Part shown: piece after piece, positions 178-12,425 of the stretch
Numbering within the stretch: position 1 is the stretch's first letter
Layout: every line of letters starts with the position of its first letter
Origin: Armatimonadota bacterium
Lineage (GTDB): Bacteria; Armatimonadota; DTGP01; JAKQQT01
Assembly: GCA_036504095.1 (NCBI GenBank)
Contig: DASXVS010000023.1
Location: forward strand, 1 to 64,000
Direction of reading: 5' to 3'
DNA: 64,000 bases
Position numbers and translations under genes: made by a program
The notes under the pieces: generated by a model
Databases searched by the model: none
Seen by the model: the letters and a program-made list of their open reading frames with translations, nothing else
What the model was told of the DNA's origin: nothing

Positions 178-640
178 CTAGTTGGTGGTGGACGGGCGTA
201 GCCCTGCTCCTCCAGCCAGGCGCGATGGGCCTGCACGCTGGCCCGCGCAAAGGCCGGCCTGCCCTGCCCGCCAAACGAAGAAGTCGTCGAGAGCCTGGGC
301 GTACATTTTCTTCGTGGTGGGGCTGGAGACGGCGTCCAGCACCTGGGGGCGAATCGTCTCCAGGAAGACCGCCAGGCGGTCGTGGCGGCGGATCTCGTGG
401 TCCAGCCGGCCGCCTTCGGCCAGCAATTCCTCCAGGCGGGCGATCAGTGCAGGCCGCCGGCAAATCAGCGTATTGCCGGGGCCGGGCTCGGCGCCGCAGT
501 GGCGCAGCAGCCGCCAGGCGACGGTTTTTGAGACGCCCAGCAGTTCCTCGAGCTGGCGGCGGTCCACCCAGTCGGCGGTGGAAAGCCGGAGCGACTCCAG
601 TGCGGCCGGAATCCGGTGGTAATAGGTGGGGTGGGTGGGT
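178..640 (-). pseudogene. HTH gene remnant fused to tyrosine-integrase N-terminal fragment
   Basis: Reading right to left, the first part (from about 640) encodes a small protein with the stretch DRRQLEELLGVSKTVAWRLL, which looks like a helix-turn-helix. It matches a second copy at 8342-8828 almost residue for residue (HRIPAAL, DRRQLEELL, EIRRHDRLA, IRPQVL). After IRPQVLDAV the text switches to SPTTKKMYAQALDDFF, which resembles the core-binding domain of tyrosine recombinases. Integrase-like sequence (RASVQAHRAWLEEQG) continues in a shifted frame and then meets stops. The junction and frameshifts indicate a decayed fusion left by recombination. No intact recombinase is present. Confidence 0.6.
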
Positions 641-4324: not shown

Positions 4325-7300
4325 CTAGGGATTCACCGTGACGATAGCGCTCTTGGAGACTCCTCCATAGCTCGCCGTGATGGTGACCTGAGTGGTGGTC
4401 ATTACGGCTCTGGTCGCAATGGCGAAATAGGTGGAGTATGTTGCGCCGCCGGCAATCGTAATCGTCGATGGCGGTATAACAACCGTTGGACTAGAGGAGA
4501 TCAGCGTCACGACGGCCCCAGCCGGCGGCGCCGGGCCATCCAAGGCGACAGACGCACCGGAGGCTTTGCCTCCGGTAACGGCGGCGACCGAAGCAACCAA
4601 AGCAGCGAGGGCCGTTGGTTTTACATTTACTGTGATGGACTTGGAGACCCCGCCATAAGTGGCCGTGATTACCACCGGCGTTGCAGCAGTGACAGAGCCC
4701 GTTTTGACAATGAACGTAGGAGATACGGCAGCACCAGCGGCCACCGTCACCGTGGCCGGCGGTGTGGCGATGACCGGATTAGCGGAAGACAACGTAACCA
4801 CGGCGCCTCCGGACGGTGCCGGACCATCGATGTAGATCGAGCCGCCGAGATTCTTACCTCCGGAAATGGGCGTGGCAGAGAGGTAGAGTGCCGACAATGC
4901 TGTGGGTTTTACATTCACCGTGACGGACTTGGAAACGCCGCCATAGGTGGCCTTGATCGTAACAGGCTCGCTGGTGTTCACCTGTAACGTCGGGATCGTG
5001 AAATAGCCCGAGGTCGTCGAGCCGGCCGGTACGGTCACACTTACTGGCGGAACCGCTGCGCTATCGGAGCTGGTCAGCAGGACCACTGCACCTCCGACTG
5101 GAGCCGGGCCATTCAGTGTGACCGAGACCGACTTAATCGGGTTGCCACCCGTAACGGCCGTCGTCCACGTGGATAGGGCTGTCAGTACGGTGGGTGTCAC
5201 CGTAAAGATTGCCGTCTTGACGGAACCGAAGTAGGTGGCGGTAAGCGTCACTGACGTCGCTGCCGAAACTGTTGTCGTGAGAATAGTAAATGGCGCCGAA
5301 ACGCGTGACCCCTCAGGAATGGTAACGCTGGCCGGGACAGTTACGGCCGGATTGGAGCTCGTCAATCGAATGATCGCACCGCCGACCGGCGCGTTGGCGC
5401 TGATGTAGATCTGATTCGAGGTACTCGATCCGCCGCCCGCCAACTGTGTTGTCGAGAGTACGATGGACGAAATGGTGAAGGGTGCGACCGTGAGGTTCGC
5501 GGTCTTCACCATGCCCGCCAAGGAAGCGGAAATTGTTACAGCGGTGTCGACAGTAACGGCCCCGGTGGTAATACTGAACGGCGCGGACTGTGAGGCTCCG
5601 GCCGGAATTGTGACGGAGGCAGGCGGTAGGGCAACTGCGGAGTTTGAGCTGCGAAGTGTGACGACTGCACCGGATGCACCGGCCGGTCCAGTGAGAATCA
5701 CCTTGTTGCCTGCGATCGTCGTACCGCTGCCGAATGACGCTGCCGACAAGGTCAGCTGATAGAGTACCCCAGCGTTCGCCAACTGGAAGTTGGCCACGGT
5801 AGACGATCCATCGATGACACCAACTCCTGCCGTTGTGCTGCTGATCCCCCCAGCCAGCGAGGCGGTCGTTGAATACGTGCCTGCCGGCAGCCCGAGGGTT
5901 GTGAACTTGCCTTGGGCATCGGTAACCGCGCCGGCCGAAAACGAGCCACTATCTACCGTAATTTGCACGCCTGCCAGCGGAGTCCCCGAGTCGTTCACTA
6001 CCGTCCCGGTGATCGTGCCGAGATCATGCATCAGCATCTGCACGTAGCGGCTTCCACCCGCCGCCACCGTTTGGGCGCTGAGCCTGTAGGCCGAGTGCCC
6101 CACTGCGCTGGAAAGAAGATCGTACGTTCCCGCGGTTACCGGCAACGTAAATAGTCCATTGTTGTCGGTCACCGCGCTGGCTTTCACAACCCCGGCCTGC
6201 GACGCCTGCACCACCGCTCCCGCCAGGAGTTGCCCCCCGGCTGTGACAGACCCGGTGAAGGCGCCGGTGGGTACACCGAGCCTCACTCGCAGGGAGCTAT
6301 CGGCGCCGGCAGGAATCACAACATTGTAACTCCAGGTCGGGTTCACACCATCGCTGACTGTCAGCGTCGTAGCGCCAACGGGCATGTTGCCGAAGCGGAA
6401 AAGGCCCGTGGCCGGAGTGGTAATGAGAACGCCGCCCATCCGAACCTGAGCGCCGTTCACCGGCGTACCGGAAGCGTTAATCACCTGGCCCGCCAGGCCA
6501 CCGGTGGTAGTGGCCCGCATCTCACCACTGAGGCTGTGGAGTGCGTTCACACGGCCATAGCCGTAGTACTGATCCCAGGCGCCGGTGGTACTCTTGGATT
6601 CGGCGGATTGCTCGATCCGCTGCGCCACTGCGTCGGACGCCAGATCCGTGGTGGTGGCGGCAATGAGGCCCGCCACGGCGGAAACCATAGGAGTGGCCAT
6701 CGATGTCCCGCTCATGTTCACGTAGGTATTGCCGGGGTAAGTGGAGAGAATATTGACACCGGGCGCCATCACATCCAGCCCGAAGCCGAAGTTGGAAAAC
6801 GACGCCTTGGCGTCTGACGAATCAGTCGCCCCCACTCCCAGCACGTAATTCGCACCGGCCGGATAGAAGAGCGTGCTGCTGTTTGAATTGCCGGCGGCGG
6901 CGATCACGAGCACGTTTTTCGACCAGGCATAGTCCACCGCATCCTGTAAGAGTTGCGAGTAGCCCGCGCCGCCCAGGCTCATGGAGATGATCCGGGCACC
7001 AGCGTCGGCGGCTCTGGTGATCCCACTGGCGATGTCAAAATCGGAGCCGTATCCCGTCTTATCCATCACCTTGTAGATCATCAACTGGGCCGGGAAGCCC
7101 AACGATGCGATGCCCTTTCCGTTGTTGGTGGCCGCAGCCAGAATGCCGGCAACATGGGTACCGTGGCCATGGTCATCCTGCCACAAGCAGGCTGGGCTGG
7201 TAATGGTGGTCGGCACAATCGCCGTGCTCAGGGCGGCAGCAAACTGGCTACCGCCGGAAGTAGCGGTCGTTCCGCCAACGACGTCCACGAAATCAGGATG

Positions 7301-8341: not shown

Positions 8342-8828
8342 TCAGGCGCCCACGGCTTCCAGAAACTCGTTGGCTCCGGCAAAGTCGATGTGGAGGCTGA
8401 ACCGGGTCAGCAGGACATTGGCGGGCTAGGACTGGAATTGGCGGCTGAGCATCTCCATGGCCCGTTCGTCCTTGGCGACATCGGTGATGTTCGCCAAGAC
8501 CTGCGGGCGGATGCGCTCAAGAAACCCCGCCAGCCGGTCATGGCGCCGGATCTCACGGTCCAGCGGTCCGCCCTCCCGCCGGAGTTCTTCGAGCCGGTCA
8601 ATCAGCGCCGCACGGCCGCAAACCAGAGCGCCGCCGGGCCCTACCTCGCCGCCACAGTGCCGCAGCACGCGCCACGATTTTGGAGACGTCGAGCAGCTCT
8701 TCCAACTGGCGGCGATCGATCCATTGGCGCGTGGATTGGCGCAGTGCGTCCAGCGCGGCGGGAATCCGGTGTCCGTAGGTGGGGCTGGCTGGCATGGGCA
8801 ACTCGATCTTTCCCGGCAGATGTTTCAA
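8342..8828 (-). pseudogene. HTH gene, second decayed copy
   Basis: Begins around 8828 and parallels the copy at 178-640: HRIPAAL, then IDRRQLEELLDVSK, a frameshift inside the HTH helix near 8680 (a net 5-nt deletion against copy 1), then LRHCGGEVGPGG and EIRRHDRLAGFLERIRPQVL. A TAG after RQFQS interrupts the frame. Beyond it the same frame continues with NVLLTRFSLHIDFAGANEFL to a TGA at 8342, so the original gene probably ended there and the TAG arose from CAG. It is therefore doubly inactivated. It lies directly downstream of the partition genes on the same strand and may once have been part of that module. Confidence 0.6.
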
Positions 8829-8940
8829 TGTTTAGACATCTGAACAGCTAGACAACCGAGCCCTGCGGCACGGGCTGTGGCAGGGCCGACTGGGATAAAC
8901 AGCTAGCCATCTACCTGTTTAGCCAGCCAGCCATCCAGCA
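8820..8940. repeat. 8-bp-unit repeat array 1 (candidate centromere)
   Basis: Consecutive 8-mers read ATGTTTCA, ATGTTTAG, ACATCTGA, ACAGCTAG, ACAACCGA at 8820-8859. From about 8898 further units follow (AACAGCTA, GCCATCTA, CCTGTTTA, GCCAGCCA), which run into the 3' end of the ribbon-helix-helix gene. The spacing and sequence match the arrays at 9078-9133 and 9845-9940. Confidence 0.6.
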
Positions 8941-9208
8941 GCTCTGCCACCAGATCGCTCAGTTCCCTGCCCTGGCTCACCAGACGGCTCTTGGCCCGCA
9001 GATGCATGTCGCGCGGTATGTAGGTGGTGAACTTGACATAGCGCGGATCGCGGCTTTTGGCCAGGCCGGTTAGCGGAACATCTGGCTGTTTCTCTATTTG
9101 GCTGTCTGACTGTTTAACCATCTGAACATCCGGCACCACTTTGGCTAGCCGCGCGATCCGCAATGCGTCAAACGGGCTCACCCTCGCTTCGTCAACCCTT
9201 TTGCCCAT
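8903..9208 (-). CDS. ribbon-helix-helix-like partner of ParA
   Basis: About 101 residues from the ATG at 9208, which has GGAGG six bases upstream; it overlaps the end of parA by about 17 bp, so the two are translationally linked. The C-terminal half (RYVKFTTYIPRDMHLRAKSR, then LSDLVAELLDGWLAKQ) has the beta-strand/helix/helix pattern of CopG/Arc-type DNA-binding proteins. The middle (residues about 28-47, rich in Q, K, S, D and V) is encoded by the 8-bp repeat array, so its sequence may be set by the DNA element. The likely role is the centromere-binding protein of a type Ib-like partition system, acting with ParA. This is inferred from context; homology is not obvious by eye. Confidence 0.65.
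   Translation of the reverse strand: MGKRVDEARVSPFDALRIARLAKVVPDVQMVKQSDSQIEKQPDVPLTGLAKSRDPRYVKFTTYIPRDMHLRAKSRLVSQGRELSDLVAELLDGWLAKQVDG
9078..9133. repeat. 8-bp-unit repeat array 2, inside the RHH gene
   Basis: Seven contiguous 8-mers: ACATCTGG, CTGTTTCT, CTATTTGG, CTGTCTGA, CTGTTTAA, CCATCTGA, ACATCCGG. The consensus agrees with the array upstream of parA. It lies entirely within coding sequence; three 8-bp units equal eight codons, so the frame tolerates it. Confidence 0.65.
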
Positions 9209-9806
9209 ACAGAGCCTCCACTTCCTCGGCCACGGCTTCATAATCGCGCCAGGCCAACCCGGCGGAGTCGCTATTGCGCACGCAATCCACCGTGCCGCCC
9301 TCCAGCGCCGCCCGCTGAAACGCTACGGTGCGCCGGATGTCCCTCTCAAACAGCGGCAACCCGGCGTTGATCAGCGTCTGGCGGGCGTTATCCCCGTCCG
9401 GCATGGGCCGCGGCGGAACCACGGTCAGCAGGATTCGGTAGCGGTCACTGCCCAGGGTTTGCAGCGCCTCAATCGTCAGCAACAGCGCGTCGAGCGCGAA
9501 TGGGTCCGGCGTGCAAGGTAGAATCAGCAGGTCGCATCCGCTGGCCAAGGCCTGCAAATCGGCCGGATCGGGCCTCGCCTTGGTATCGATGATCAAATGC
9601 TCCGCTTTGCGCGCATAGATCGCAATCTGCGATTCCGGCGCCACTTCAAATTCCGGCTTGCCCCGCGCCGCCCACGAGGTTGAGCTGCGATTTGGATCCC
9701 CGTCAATCAATACGGTCGGCGCCTGACGGGCAAAGTAGGCGGCAAGATGAATGGCGGTGGTCGTCTTGCCGACTCCGCCCTTGAACGAGGCAACAGTGAG
9801 AATCAT
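9192..9806 (-). CDS. parA: ParA-family partition ATPase
   Basis: A 204-residue Walker-type ATPase. The deviant Walker A KGGVGKTTTAIHLA lies at residues 9-22, with the signature lysine at 9. VLIDGDPNRSS follows at about 32, and LIIDTKARP and LLILPCTPD at about 72-100 complete the nucleotide site. There is no N-terminal HTH extension, so this is the short ParA/MinD-like class found on plasmids and mobile replicons. It would drive segregation with the downstream RHH protein, with which it overlaps. Upstream, between parA and the primase gene, lies the best 16-bp repeat array (9845-9940), where the partition site and autoregulatory operator would be expected. Confidence 0.88.
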   Translation of the reverse strand: MILTVASFKGGVGKTTTAIHLAAYFARQAPTVLIDGDPNRSSTSWAARGKPEFEVAPESQIAIYARKAEHLIIDTKARPDPADLQALASGCDLLILPCTPDPFALDALLLTIEALQTLGSDRYRILLTVVPPRPMPDGDNARQTLINAGLPLFERDIRRTVAFQRAALEGGTVDCVRNSDSAGLAWRDYEAVAEEVEALYGQKG

Positions 9807-9844
9807 GTCTGGGGCGCTCTCATACTCACCAGAATACGCGCCAA

Positions 9845-9940
9845 CTGTTCACCTGTCCAGATGTTTACCCGTCTACCTGTCCAGTTGTCTGGCTGTTTAA
9901 ACGGCTGCCTGTTTAACTGCCTGCCCGTTTAACTGGCTGG
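9845..9940. repeat. six tandem 16-bp repeats (2 x 8 bp), candidate parS/operator
   Basis: Six units without spacers: CTGTTCACCTGTCCAG, ATGTTTACCCGTCTAC, CTGTCCAGTTGTCTGG, CTGTTTAAACGGCTGC, CTGTTTAACTGCCTGC, CCGTTTAACTGGCTGG. Each splits into two 8-mers of the form NTGTYNAN. It starts about 39 bp upstream of the parA start. Helically phased short arrays in this position are typical binding sites for ribbon-helix-helix partition proteins. Confidence 0.75.
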
Positions 9941-9973
9941 TGACTCACCGTTTTGCCCGCCAACCGGAGCCGC

Positions 9974-10939
9974 TCACGGAGCGTCGGCCACAACTCCGCT
10001 CAGCCGCCCGGCGGCCCACGCCTCGTTCACATCCTTGTAGCCGCCGTATGTCTCGGGCGGCAAAAAGCCCACCCGCTTGCCGCGCAACCGCGCCGCCCTG
10101 GCCAGCGCGTGCCAGGCCGTCTGGCCGGCCGGATCGGCATCGAGCGCAAACACTATCTCCTTCACCTCGTGGGCCCAAGTCCAGCGCCACCCATGCACCC
10201 CGAAGATAGCCACCACGCGCCCCACGCCGGCGGCGCGCAGGCTGAGCGCATCAAAAGGACCTTCACAGACATGCAGCGGCTGATCCAAACCGCCCGCCAG
10301 GCCGGCGCCCAGAAAGTAACCCTTCGCCCCGGCCAGATGATCGTGACGAAACGCTTTCGGCACATCATCCCCCACGGCGCGCCCGTACAAATTGACCAGC
10401 CGCCCTTCCGGGGTGGTGTGCGGAAACACGAGCCGGCCTCCACGCCAGTCCCGCAGCGGCCGCCCGCGCTCGTCGCGGTGCGCCCATTCGCCGGGGCCGG
10501 CGTAGCCCAACCCGCAGCGCTGCGCCACCGCCAGCGGAATCCCGCGGCTTTGCAGATACGCTTCACCCGCGCTGCCCGGCAGCATCTCGCGGTAAGCCGC
10601 CATCCAATCCTCAAGAACTTCGGTATCCGGAGTAAACTCCGGTTCCGGCGGTGGCAGGAGAACACCACCGCGGGGCGCCGCGCTGGAAGAGAATCTGCCG
10701 CGGGGCAGGGAAGCGGCCTCCTGCTTCCTTTGGGCCGTCCACTCTTCCCGCGCCGCTTCAGTAAAGCCCCATACTCCGCACGCAAAGCAGAAGAAGCGCC
10801 CTGAGACGGCATCCACACGCAAACTCCGCTGAGTATCGGATTGATGAAACGGGCAGAACGCCCGCAGCACCCGGCCGCCCTCCCCGCGCATCGGCTTGGC
10901 GGCGGACAGTTCGGCCGCCGACAGAGTTTCACCGCGCAC
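9974..10939 (-). CDS. DNA primase (CHC2 zinc finger plus Toprim)
   Basis: 321 residues with a GTG start overlapping the end of the helicase gene by 11 bp. The N-terminal zinc finger has CPFH at about 29 and CFACG at about 51, as in CHC2-type primases. A linker follows, then a catalytic core: LQSRGI, then LGYAG, and a Toprim domain with the acidic motif CEGPFDALSL at about 222 and FALDADPAGQ at about 263. It is shorter than DnaG (about 600 residues) and lacks the helicase-interaction domain, as in plasmid and phage primases. It would lay primers at the replicon's origin with the adjacent helicase. Confidence 0.85.
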   Translation of the reverse strand: MRGETLSAAELSAAKPMRGEGGRVLRAFCPFHQSDTQRSLRVDAVSGRFFCFACGVWGFTEAAREEWTAQRKQEAASLPRGRFSSSAAPRGGVLLPPPEPEFTPDTEVLEDWMAAYREMLPGSAGEAYLQSRGIPLAVAQRCGLGYAGPGEWAHRDERGRPLRDWRGGRLVFPHTTPEGRLVNLYGRAVGDDVPKAFRHDHLAGAKGYFLGAGLAGGLDQPLHVCEGPFDALSLRAAGVGRVVAIFGVHGWRWTWAHEVKEIVFALDADPAGQTAWHALARAARLRGKRVGFLPPETYGGYKDVNEAWAAGRLSGVVADAP

Positions 10940-12206
10940 TGGTCAGCGGAACCTCTTCGCGAAATACGCCCGTATCCGGGCGAAAGATCAGAGGCACCGT
11001 CCCCGTTCCGCCAAAGCGGTTTTTCACCACCACCAAATCAATCGCCCGGGCGGGATCGGTGGCCGTGCGCTCCCGCGCCTGGGTCAGGAACAGCACGGAA
11101 TCGGCAGCATACTCCAGATCACCCGATTCCTTCAGTGAATCGAGCTGGGCGCTGCCGCCGCGCCCGTAATCGCCGACGCTGCGATTCTGCGACGAGATTG
11201 CGATGACAGGCGATTGCAGGCGGCTGGACATTTCCCGCAGCTCCCCTGCCATCGCCGAAACGTTGTGCCGCAACTGCTCGTAGCCCTTGCCGTGTGCGGC
11301 CCTTTGCAGATAGTCGAAGACAATCAACACCTGCTCGGAGCCGGCCCGCTCGCGCGCCTGCAATGCCTTGCCGCGCACCTGCGACACCGTCGTTTGCGAC
11401 GTGCCTTCCATCAACGACACCAGGCTCAACGGCTCGCGCAGCGCCGCTGCGGCCTCCTCCAACAACGTGAGATCGGCAAAGCCGCGCTCCACCTGCGACG
11501 GCGACAGCCCGGCCCGGCTGCATGCCATCTTCAAAACCAGGCTTTGAGGCGAATTCTCATAGGTCACATACACCACCGGCACATGACACGCGGCGGCGTG
11601 CAGAGCCCACTGCGTGCAAATAGTGGTCTTGCCCACGCCCGGCCCGGCGGCCAGCACGTGCAACCCTTCGTTGAAGCCGTTGAGGATCTGATCCAGCCGT
11701 CCCAGGCCCGTCGCGATGCCGCTGCACGGCTTTCCCGTGGCTTTGCGGCGCGCCAGACGCCGGCGGGCCAGCGCCAGTGCGCCATCCAACAGGCCGCATC
11801 CCGAAACAGCAGTGCCCGCATCGGTTTCGCGCACCCGGCAGCGCACGGCGGCGGCCTCTTCCTCCAGCAGCGCGGCCACTGCCGCAGCCGGACGGGTCTC
11901 ATCAAAGAGCGCGTCGGCCAGACGCTCCTGCAATCCGGCCAGGAGCCGACGCTGGTACAGATCGGCCAGACGCACCGCATCGGCTCGCGGGTCTGTACTG
12001 GGCTCCACGGACGGGCCCACGGGTGTGGTTCCAGCGCTCACCGCATCCCGCAACTCCGCCCATACGGCGGATTCCACACAAAAACTCCCTTCGGGCAGTA
12101 AATCCTGTAATTGCCAATAGAGATTCAAGTCGCCGGCAATGGCAGCCAGCAGTCTCTGTTCCGTCCCCGGGTCGAGAAACTCTGATTCGAGGCTATACGT
12201 ACGCAT
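10929..12206 (-). CDS. DnaB-like replicative helicase
   Basis: About 425 residues from the ATG at 12206 (AAGG just upstream); an in-frame ATG at 12230 is the alternative. An N-terminal DnaB-type helical domain is followed by a RecA-like ATPase with SGIATGLGRLDQILNGF and Walker A AAGPGVGKTT at about residue 180, Walker B LIVFDYLQ at about 295, PVIAISSQNRS at about 335 and a late VVKNRFGGTG at about 395. It is first in the operon helicase-primase-parA-RHH. A divergent origin-like region lies directly upstream. It is most likely the replicon's own helicase, since the sequence is well diverged from a chromosomal DnaB. Confidence 0.85.
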   Translation of the reverse strand: MRTYSLESEFLDPGTEQRLLAAIAGDLNLYWQLQDLLPEGSFCVESAVWAELRDAVSAGTTPVGPSVEPSTDPRADAVRLADLYQRRLLAGLQERLADALFDETRPAAAVAALLEEEAAAVRCRVRETDAGTAVSGCGLLDGALALARRRLARRKATGKPCSGIATGLGRLDQILNGFNEGLHVLAAGPGVGKTTICTQWALHAAACHVPVVYVTYENSPQSLVLKMACSRAGLSPSQVERGFADLTLLEEAAAALREPLSLVSLMEGTSQTTVSQVRGKALQARERAGSEQVLIVFDYLQRAAHGKGYEQLRHNVSAMAGELREMSSRLQSPVIAISSQNRSVGDYGRGGSAQLDSLKESGDLEYAADSVLFLTQARERTATDPARAIDLVVVKNRFGGTGTVPLIFRPDTGVFREEVPLTSAR

Positions 12207-12240
12207 GACGCCTTGGGTAGTATAGGGCACAGCTGCGCGG

Positions 12241-12425
12241 CCCCTGGGCCGGTGCAGCGTGTGTTAATACTGGTTAAAACTAGTTAGAGTTGTGATAACT
12301 CCGTATTGTATTGATTCAAAAAGTCTTACATCAACACTTGCGCCGGGATAACGTCTACATAGCGCCGTCATGGCGTCTACTTAGCGCCAACATAGCGTCC
12401 CGGTTATCACAACTGTCTGAGGGCT
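12241..12425. other. AT-rich, repeat-containing, origin-like region
   Basis: Between the divergent helicase and dehydrogenase genes. It contains a perfect inverted repeat, AGTTGTGATAAC (12288-12299) with GTTATCACAACT (12403-12414), whose core TTATCACA resembles a DnaA box. Two direct copies lie 22 bp apart: ACGTCTACATAGCGCC (12351-12366) and GCGTCTACTTAGCGCC (12373-12388), plus a partial third. An AT-rich segment covers 12261-12330. The neighbouring replication genes and a shared repeat with 16036-16051 support an origin or a Rep-binding region, but activity cannot be shown from sequence. Confidence 0.5.

Follow-up and report, generated by a model that had tools for sequence, protein, structure and literature searches.

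The closest described systems are those in which dimers of a ribbon-helix-helix (RHH) protein occupy short repeats in DNA. MetJ is the familiar example, with contiguous 8-bp met boxes for its RHH dimers. For plasmid partition, it is reported that ParG of TP228 binds both a centromere and an operator (PMC7308502, PMC5016525), and that in pSM19035 the same repeats act as centromere and operator (PMC9499535, PMC5016525), full activation of the ATPase by Omega and parS needing at least four contiguous repeats (PMC9499535). We read the locus discussed here as a plasmid partition locus of type Ib (ParF/ParG-like) with a centromere that is spread over the whole operon, and put the probability of that reading at about 0.78; binding, repression, partition and the role of each array are what we infer from the analysis.

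In the window, by which we mean the whole 64-kb stretch of DNA that was analysed, from a contig of 66,012 bp, the order on the minus strand is a dnaB-like helicase gene (10929-12230), a TOPRIM primase gene (9974-10939), array A, parA (9192-9806), the RHH gene (8903-9208) and array D. The parA gene encodes a 204-aa deviant Walker ATPase with the motif KGGVGKT, and the ParG-like RHH gene, which has its ATG at 9208 and overlaps parA by 17 nt, encodes a presumed centromere-binding protein of 101 aa. Four blocks between 8269 and 16449 are collinear with the Paludibaculum fermentans plasmid pPfer1 at 86-92% identity, and on this basis we regard the contig as plasmid-like; comparison of the two contig ends gave no overlap. 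The stretch from the dnaB-like gene to its next neighbour holds short tandem repeats at 12263-12286 (10 bp x 2.4) and 12348-12399 (22 bp x 2.4), possibly iterons of a plasmid origin. The gene that follows array D is split over two frames in the window (8407-8828, minus strand) and intact in pPfer1 (5342-5884). A second related copy is found at the start of the contig (178-567, minus strand), and window positions 332-638 have 75% identity to pPfer1 5345-5651.

With regard to the host, its plasmid backbone is 86-92% identical to that of an Acidobacteriota plasmid, while among the 291 genomes of its own phylum group the host genome (G000) gave the only hit to the RHH profile. The group around the acidobacterial MAG used in our survey is larger and includes G547, the carrier of a Granulicella plasmid, and the 16S fragment of the host has 83% identity to G547 and equally to a genome of its own family. 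The mismatch of host and plasmid is possibly due to cross-phylum transfer, to misbinning or to a split in the taxonomy.

There are four arrays of 8-bp units in the window, all with at least four contiguous units. Array A (9841-9936, minus strand), upstream of parA, has 12 gap-free 8-mers with a consensus of about ACAKNTRR. Array B (9074-9129, minus strand) has seven units of the array A type in codons 27-45 of the RHH gene. Array C (8903-8942, minus strand) has four to five units, which take in the last RHH codons and run to the final base of the stop codon, the fifth unit contributing little (24.0 with four units, 25.5 with five). Array D (8820-8859, plus strand), of five units, is downstream of the RHH gene and separated from C by about 43 bp (8860-8902); A, B and C have the same orientation, and D is inverted, scoring best on the opposite strand. 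The preliminary description had three arrays, and the observation is real, but its third (8820-8940) consists of C and D in opposite orientations, so that there are four. The 16-bp pairing that it reported in the upstream array is confirmed, the self-match being higher at lag 16 (0.68) than at lag 8 (0.49).

The arrays were scored with a matrix trained only on the A arrays of the window (12 units) and pPfer1 (8 units), which was run across both strands of the window and 50,000 of the 55,292 bases of pPfer1. The five-unit scores in the window are 49.8 and 37.3 for A, 31.3 for D, 31.1 for B and 25.5 for C, with 6.2 for the best site beyond the arrays and their edges; in pPfer1 they are 50.3 for A, 47.4 for B, 37.8 for D and 29.0 for C, with 5.4 for the next. 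The maximum score in 60 Markov-generated 64-kb windows averages 5.8, the highest being 19.9. As a matrix derived from A alone recovers B, C and D, the intragenic arrays match the intergenic one in kind, and the earlier claims of a parA/RHH pair with phased repeats and of an array within the RHH gene, built of array A units, are upheld. A pattern search of the 4.68-Mb host genome with up to three mismatches gave 31 matches, 14 in the arrays and 17 elsewhere (24 for a reversed-pattern control); with up to two mismatches five of the eight matches are in the arrays, and the other three are single hits on other contigs. A 2-kb stretch of a 29-kb host contig (C15) that was scanned with the array A matrix scores 20.1 over four units (L201:1019-1050), possibly a short array. 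Array C only modestly exceeds the needs of the protein, as 470 of 20,000 synonymous recodings reach its four-unit score.

The ParA protein is 97% identical to that of pPfer1. It has the deviant Walker A motif near the N terminus, with the CbiA and AAA_31 matches starting at residue 2-3, and the domain search gave no HTH match and hence no sign of an N-terminal HTH domain; against NF041546 (ParA_partition) it scores 88.9 bits, under the cut-off of 180. A profile of the RHH protein (A3, 14 homologues) matches solved RHH proteins, namely a CopG family protein (9kkd, E 1e-5), omega (E 0.016) and ParG (E 0.18). The window protein alone matches Pfam ParG with an E of 0.013, which is below the cut-off; NCBIfam gave no match for it, nor did Foldseek with the monomer model. 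In the predicted model there are helices at 66-79 and 83-100, with a mean pLDDT of 90-93 over residues 61-100, and within the linker residues 26-28 and 33-38 have a pLDDT below 50. Towards the N terminus F13 is invariant and L16 near-invariant in the 14 proteins, and this motif is presumed to be the ParA contact.

Judged by its sequence the locus resembles a partition operon of type Ib (ParF/ParG-like), having a short ParA with no HTH, an RHH gene directly downstream, and phased short repeats before parA. Two other types were considered. Type Ia, with an HTH ParB and long palindromic parS, was rejected as the partner matches RHH profiles and the repeats are 8-bp arrays. The delta-omega type of pSM19035 was rejected as its 7-bp repeats are absent, the self-match at lag 7 being 0.18 in both A and B, against 0.49 and 0.56 respectively at lag 8.

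The family of parA genes was surveyed with homologues from genome contigs, plasmids, viral contigs and, lastly, the phylum to which an acidobacterial MAG belongs. Periods from 5 to 15 were compared in the 350 bp preceding each parA, with one script and one null. Period 8 is the strongest in 42 of the 51 loci that have an RHH partner, a set to which window and pPfer1 belong, and 38 of the 42 reach a z of 3 or more; of the 18 parA loci with no called RHH gene it is the strongest in one (z 1.8). The 42 include records from Acidobacteriota, Cyanobacteriota, Deinococcota, Actinomycetota, Planctomycetota and Abditibacteriota, and an Oscillochloris locus that we take to be from Chloroflexota. Nine loci with an RHH partner are exceptions (L002, L058, L071, L072, L073, L077, L119, L234 and L242), and three of these (L072, L073 and L077) have another type of RHH protein and period 12 as the strongest. 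Outside controls, comprising two E. coli ParG plasmids, IncR and IncFIA (z 2.9 and 12.2), and a Zymomonas parA plasmid (z 6.2), also have period 8 on top. The preliminary description would have been refuted by a lack of conserved phasing in homologous loci, and this check came out in its favour, as most of the RHH-partnered loci have the phasing. Downstream of the genes, 27 of 36 loci have a match to the matrix of their own upstream array with its centre no more than 60 bp from the RHH stop, at a per-locus 95% threshold that passes about 5% of loci by chance. In 13 further loci just three have a downstream match above all 100 shuffles, so that array D is less general than A. The upstream 8-bp array is the usual layout of the family, and a downstream array is frequent but not constant. 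As the phasing is family-wide, the upstream array of our locus is in itself ordinary.

These counts have to be read with the composition of the survey in mind, as many of the loci are related and are not independent events. To call RHH partners we used an ORF rule plus inspection by eye or annotation rather than a profile for each, and the same rule defines the group with no RHH gene. L069 and L195 were reassigned to the RHH group after their frames were read, for L069 with the period already seen, and putting L069 back gives 41 of 50 and 2 of 19. We dropped 38 of the 80 genome-contig loci (L079-L116; weak, mostly short matches), 60 of the 64 viral-contig loci (L122-L181; weak or short), L064 (interrupted parA frame), L241 (same plasmid as L002), L199 (no parA annotated) and L244-L246 (parA match absent or weak). 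The survey excludes L182-L188 and L204-L233, and L054 has too short an upstream stretch. In the phylum of the acidobacterial MAG 43 genomes had a hit, and 13 stretches from eight genomes were taken, nine of which are in the survey.

The array motif and the protein vary together. In 39 loci, 11 of 50 having been omitted (period 8 not on top, too short, or near duplicate), the more alike the array motifs, the more alike the RHH strands tend to be (Mantel r 0.25, p 0.0005), and the remainder of the RHH domain gives a similar correlation (r 0.246, p 0.0005). The strand still correlates with the array once domain and GC are controlled for (r 0.11, p 0.03), and so does the domain once strand and GC are (r 0.16, p 0.003). 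The strand of the window protein is K-F-T, and after pPfer1 the five arrays nearest to that of the window belong to proteins with an R-x-T strand, the next two having Q. This supports, short of proof, the suggestion that the RHH protein reads the arrays, and shared descent accounts for part of the covariation.

The unusual feature of the locus is array B in the linker codons, the 8-bp array itself being ordinary. It is between the N-terminal F13 motif and the RHH domain, in codons for the disordered linker, the low-confidence part of the predicted model. When the protein is kept fixed and the codons are redrawn, none of 4000 recodings reaches the observed score in either plasmid, the matrix score being 33.2 in the window against a synonymous null of 1.1 +- 8.0, and 49.5 in pPfer1 against 23.6 +- 6.0. 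When the test was extended to the entire RHH gene, with codons drawn at the usage of the locus itself, p was 0.008 for the window and 0.002 for pPfer1, and the lag-8/16 identity of array B is equalled by 0 and 8 of 10,000 synonymous recodings in the two plasmids. These results support a pattern at the DNA level that exceeds what the protein requires. The residues of the linker also differ more between the two plasmids than do those of the rest of the protein: there are 7 non-synonymous changes in its 45 sites and 8 in the 184 sites outside it (Fisher p 0.013). The earlier claim that the linker peptide is dictated by DNA sites is supported in so far as the pattern goes beyond the needs of the protein, but not as a general rule, a strong linker array being present in only two of the 49 loci in which we looked.

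Those 49 loci (36, and 13 more) were put through the synonymous tests for both genes. Nine RHH genes have p<0.02, where about one is expected by chance: in the linker for the window, pPfer1, L037, L040 and L118, and towards the 3' end, as for array C, in L003, L042, L197 and L119. The linker scores of L037, L040 and L118 are 12-15, against 26-34 in the window and pPfer1, on different matrices that are only roughly comparable between loci, and being low they make these three candidates only. For parA four of 49 genes have p<0.02, again with about one expected. Three of these (L066, L067 and L068; nt 424-458) are from one Nodosilinea/Leptolyngbyaceae clade and have a TTAA-type 8-bp array inside parA (p 0.002, 0.002 and 0.006); the fourth is L239 (3' end). 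Close relatives of the RHH protein were absent from viral contigs, whether sought by protein or by an exact 22-base pattern from array C, and were found in one of 61 genomes related to the host and one of 291 genomes of its phylum, which was the host itself each time. Neither the 49 loci nor these searches of viral contigs and the host phylum gave a third instance of a strong array B. With the weaker candidates and the arrays in parA of the Nodosilinea clade in view, it may be that intragenic arrays arise repeatedly in the disordered linkers of proteins of this sort.

It could be argued that array B is a fossil, which the RHH gene took up or received as a copy and which now only drifts, with A (and D) as the working centromere; we regard this as unlikely. 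The restriction of the strong linker array to two close relatives is what one would expect of a fossil, and the 3'-end arrays of L003, L042, L197 and L119 resemble spill-over from a downstream array. Array B scores 29.9 in the window and 46.6 in pPfer1, and the drop can be explained by random substitution: with 11 random substitutions on the pPfer1 array a fraction of 0.35 scores at least as high as the window array, although in the reverse direction, window to pPfer1, the figure is 0 of 5000. The difference between the two plasmids is thus not in itself proof of selection keeping the motif. However, despite the 11 differences in 56 bp each copy outscores all of its 4000 synonymous recodings, and within the units positions 1 and 3 are unchanged and position 5 is the most variable, as it is in A, though the numbers are small.

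On our preferred reading, of a type Ib locus with a centromere spread over the operon, the RHH protein would bind as a row of dimers, one to each 8-bp unit. Array A would be where it assembles the partition complex and also where it masks the -35 region, with repression of its own operon as the result; it would also coat B and C within its own gene and D beyond it, and nucleoid-bound ParA would move the RHH-array complex as cargo. Array B would have been placed where the protein tolerates it best, in the codons of the disordered linker, and we propose that the linker residues are therefore largely a by-product of the DNA sites. More specifically a portion of the centromere may be housed in the gene of its binder, selected at the DNA level, with site and protein inseparable by recombination, the linker dictated by the sites, and the protein able to block its own gene from within; we give this a little less than even odds.

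Another view is that the arrays are operators for autoregulation and not a centromere, partition being elsewhere or absent. RHH proteins are often repressors, and this counts for the operator view. There is one promoter-like match in positions 8700-10100 (shuffles average 0.4), TGGACA-17-TATTCT at 9831-9859 on the minus strand, which we assign to the parA-RHH operon on its match to consensus, and its -35 hexamer falls within array A. The two roles need not be alternatives, however, as the repeats of pSM19035 double as centromere and operator and ParG of TP228 binds both, as reported (PMC9499535, PMC5016525, PMC7308502), and about 29 units over four arrays would seem to be more than an operator needs. 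We consider operators without a centromere rather improbable.

It is very improbable that array B is at root a repeat in the protein, with the 8-bp period as a side effect. In both plasmids the linker can indeed be read as a repeat of eight residues (DxQxxxQx), but a perfect octapeptide repeat gives an average lag-8/16 identity of 0.25 and reaches the observed values in just 6 and 23 of 10,000 trials, and the residues diverge between window and pPfer1 while the units remain recognisable. That the arrays are a product of chance or low complexity, for which we found no point in favour, can practically be dismissed given the scan of the whole window, the 60 Markov windows and the fact that none of 4120 coding segments of 57 nt from nine other ORFs in the window matches the periodicity of array B.

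The same 56 bases are then a row of probable binding sites and also code for the linker of the probable binder. Should array B work, one could ask of it cleanly how overlapping DNA and protein codes evolve, and why the match between a partition protein and its site is maintained. The 8-bp rule points to candidate centromeres for ParG-like plasmids in several phyla, and the differences in motif that track the RHH sequence offer a recognition code that can be tested.

Comparison with known systems shows which parts of this are new. ParF-ParG-parH of TP228 and the E. coli ParG plasmids resemble our locus in having a small ParA gene followed by that for a small RHH protein, whose N-terminal tail is flexible there and predicted to be so here, and an upstream array, with period 8 on top in the IncR and IncFIA plasmids as it is in the window; the ACTC boxes of the IncR plasmid are spaced by 54, 8, 25, 24, 8, 16, 22 and 8 bp. 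They differ in the sequence of the unit and in having their repeats upstream of the genes, as the two E. coli ParG plasmids have no array inside parG (period 8 z -1.4 and -0.8) and no clear one downstream (-1.0 and 1.8). As a correction to the preliminary description, the 8-bp phasing is not special, being the norm for the family. The sequence AGACATCT in the window arrays resembles the met box AGACGTCT of MetJ, and both proteins have a K-x-T strand. MetJ is the methionine repressor and has no ParA partner, unlike the protein of our locus. For par2 of pB171 we know of no intragenic site. Its order, parC1-parA-parB-parC2 as given by the construct lists of one paper (PMC4270457), has sites flanking the genes on both sides, as A and D do here.

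In delta-omega-parS of pSM19035, as described, there is also an RHH dimer for each short repeat, and several arrays of 7-10 contiguous repeats, direct and inverted, over promoters (PMC9499535, PMC5016525); it differs in having 7-bp WATCACW repeats, a promoter for each gene, and arrays in promoter regions. In Mycobacterium bovis BCG a putative parS inside parA (PMC2346475) is a case of a partition site within a par gene, but unlike array B it is, as there described, one 16-bp palindrome for a protein of the ParB/Spo0J type, and not an RHH array in the gene of its own binder. Our searches of open-licence PubMed Central gave no precedent for an array placed within the linker codons of the binder itself. 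The operon with its 8-bp array is thus of an already known kind, and it is the array in the linker codons of its own binder that is the new part.
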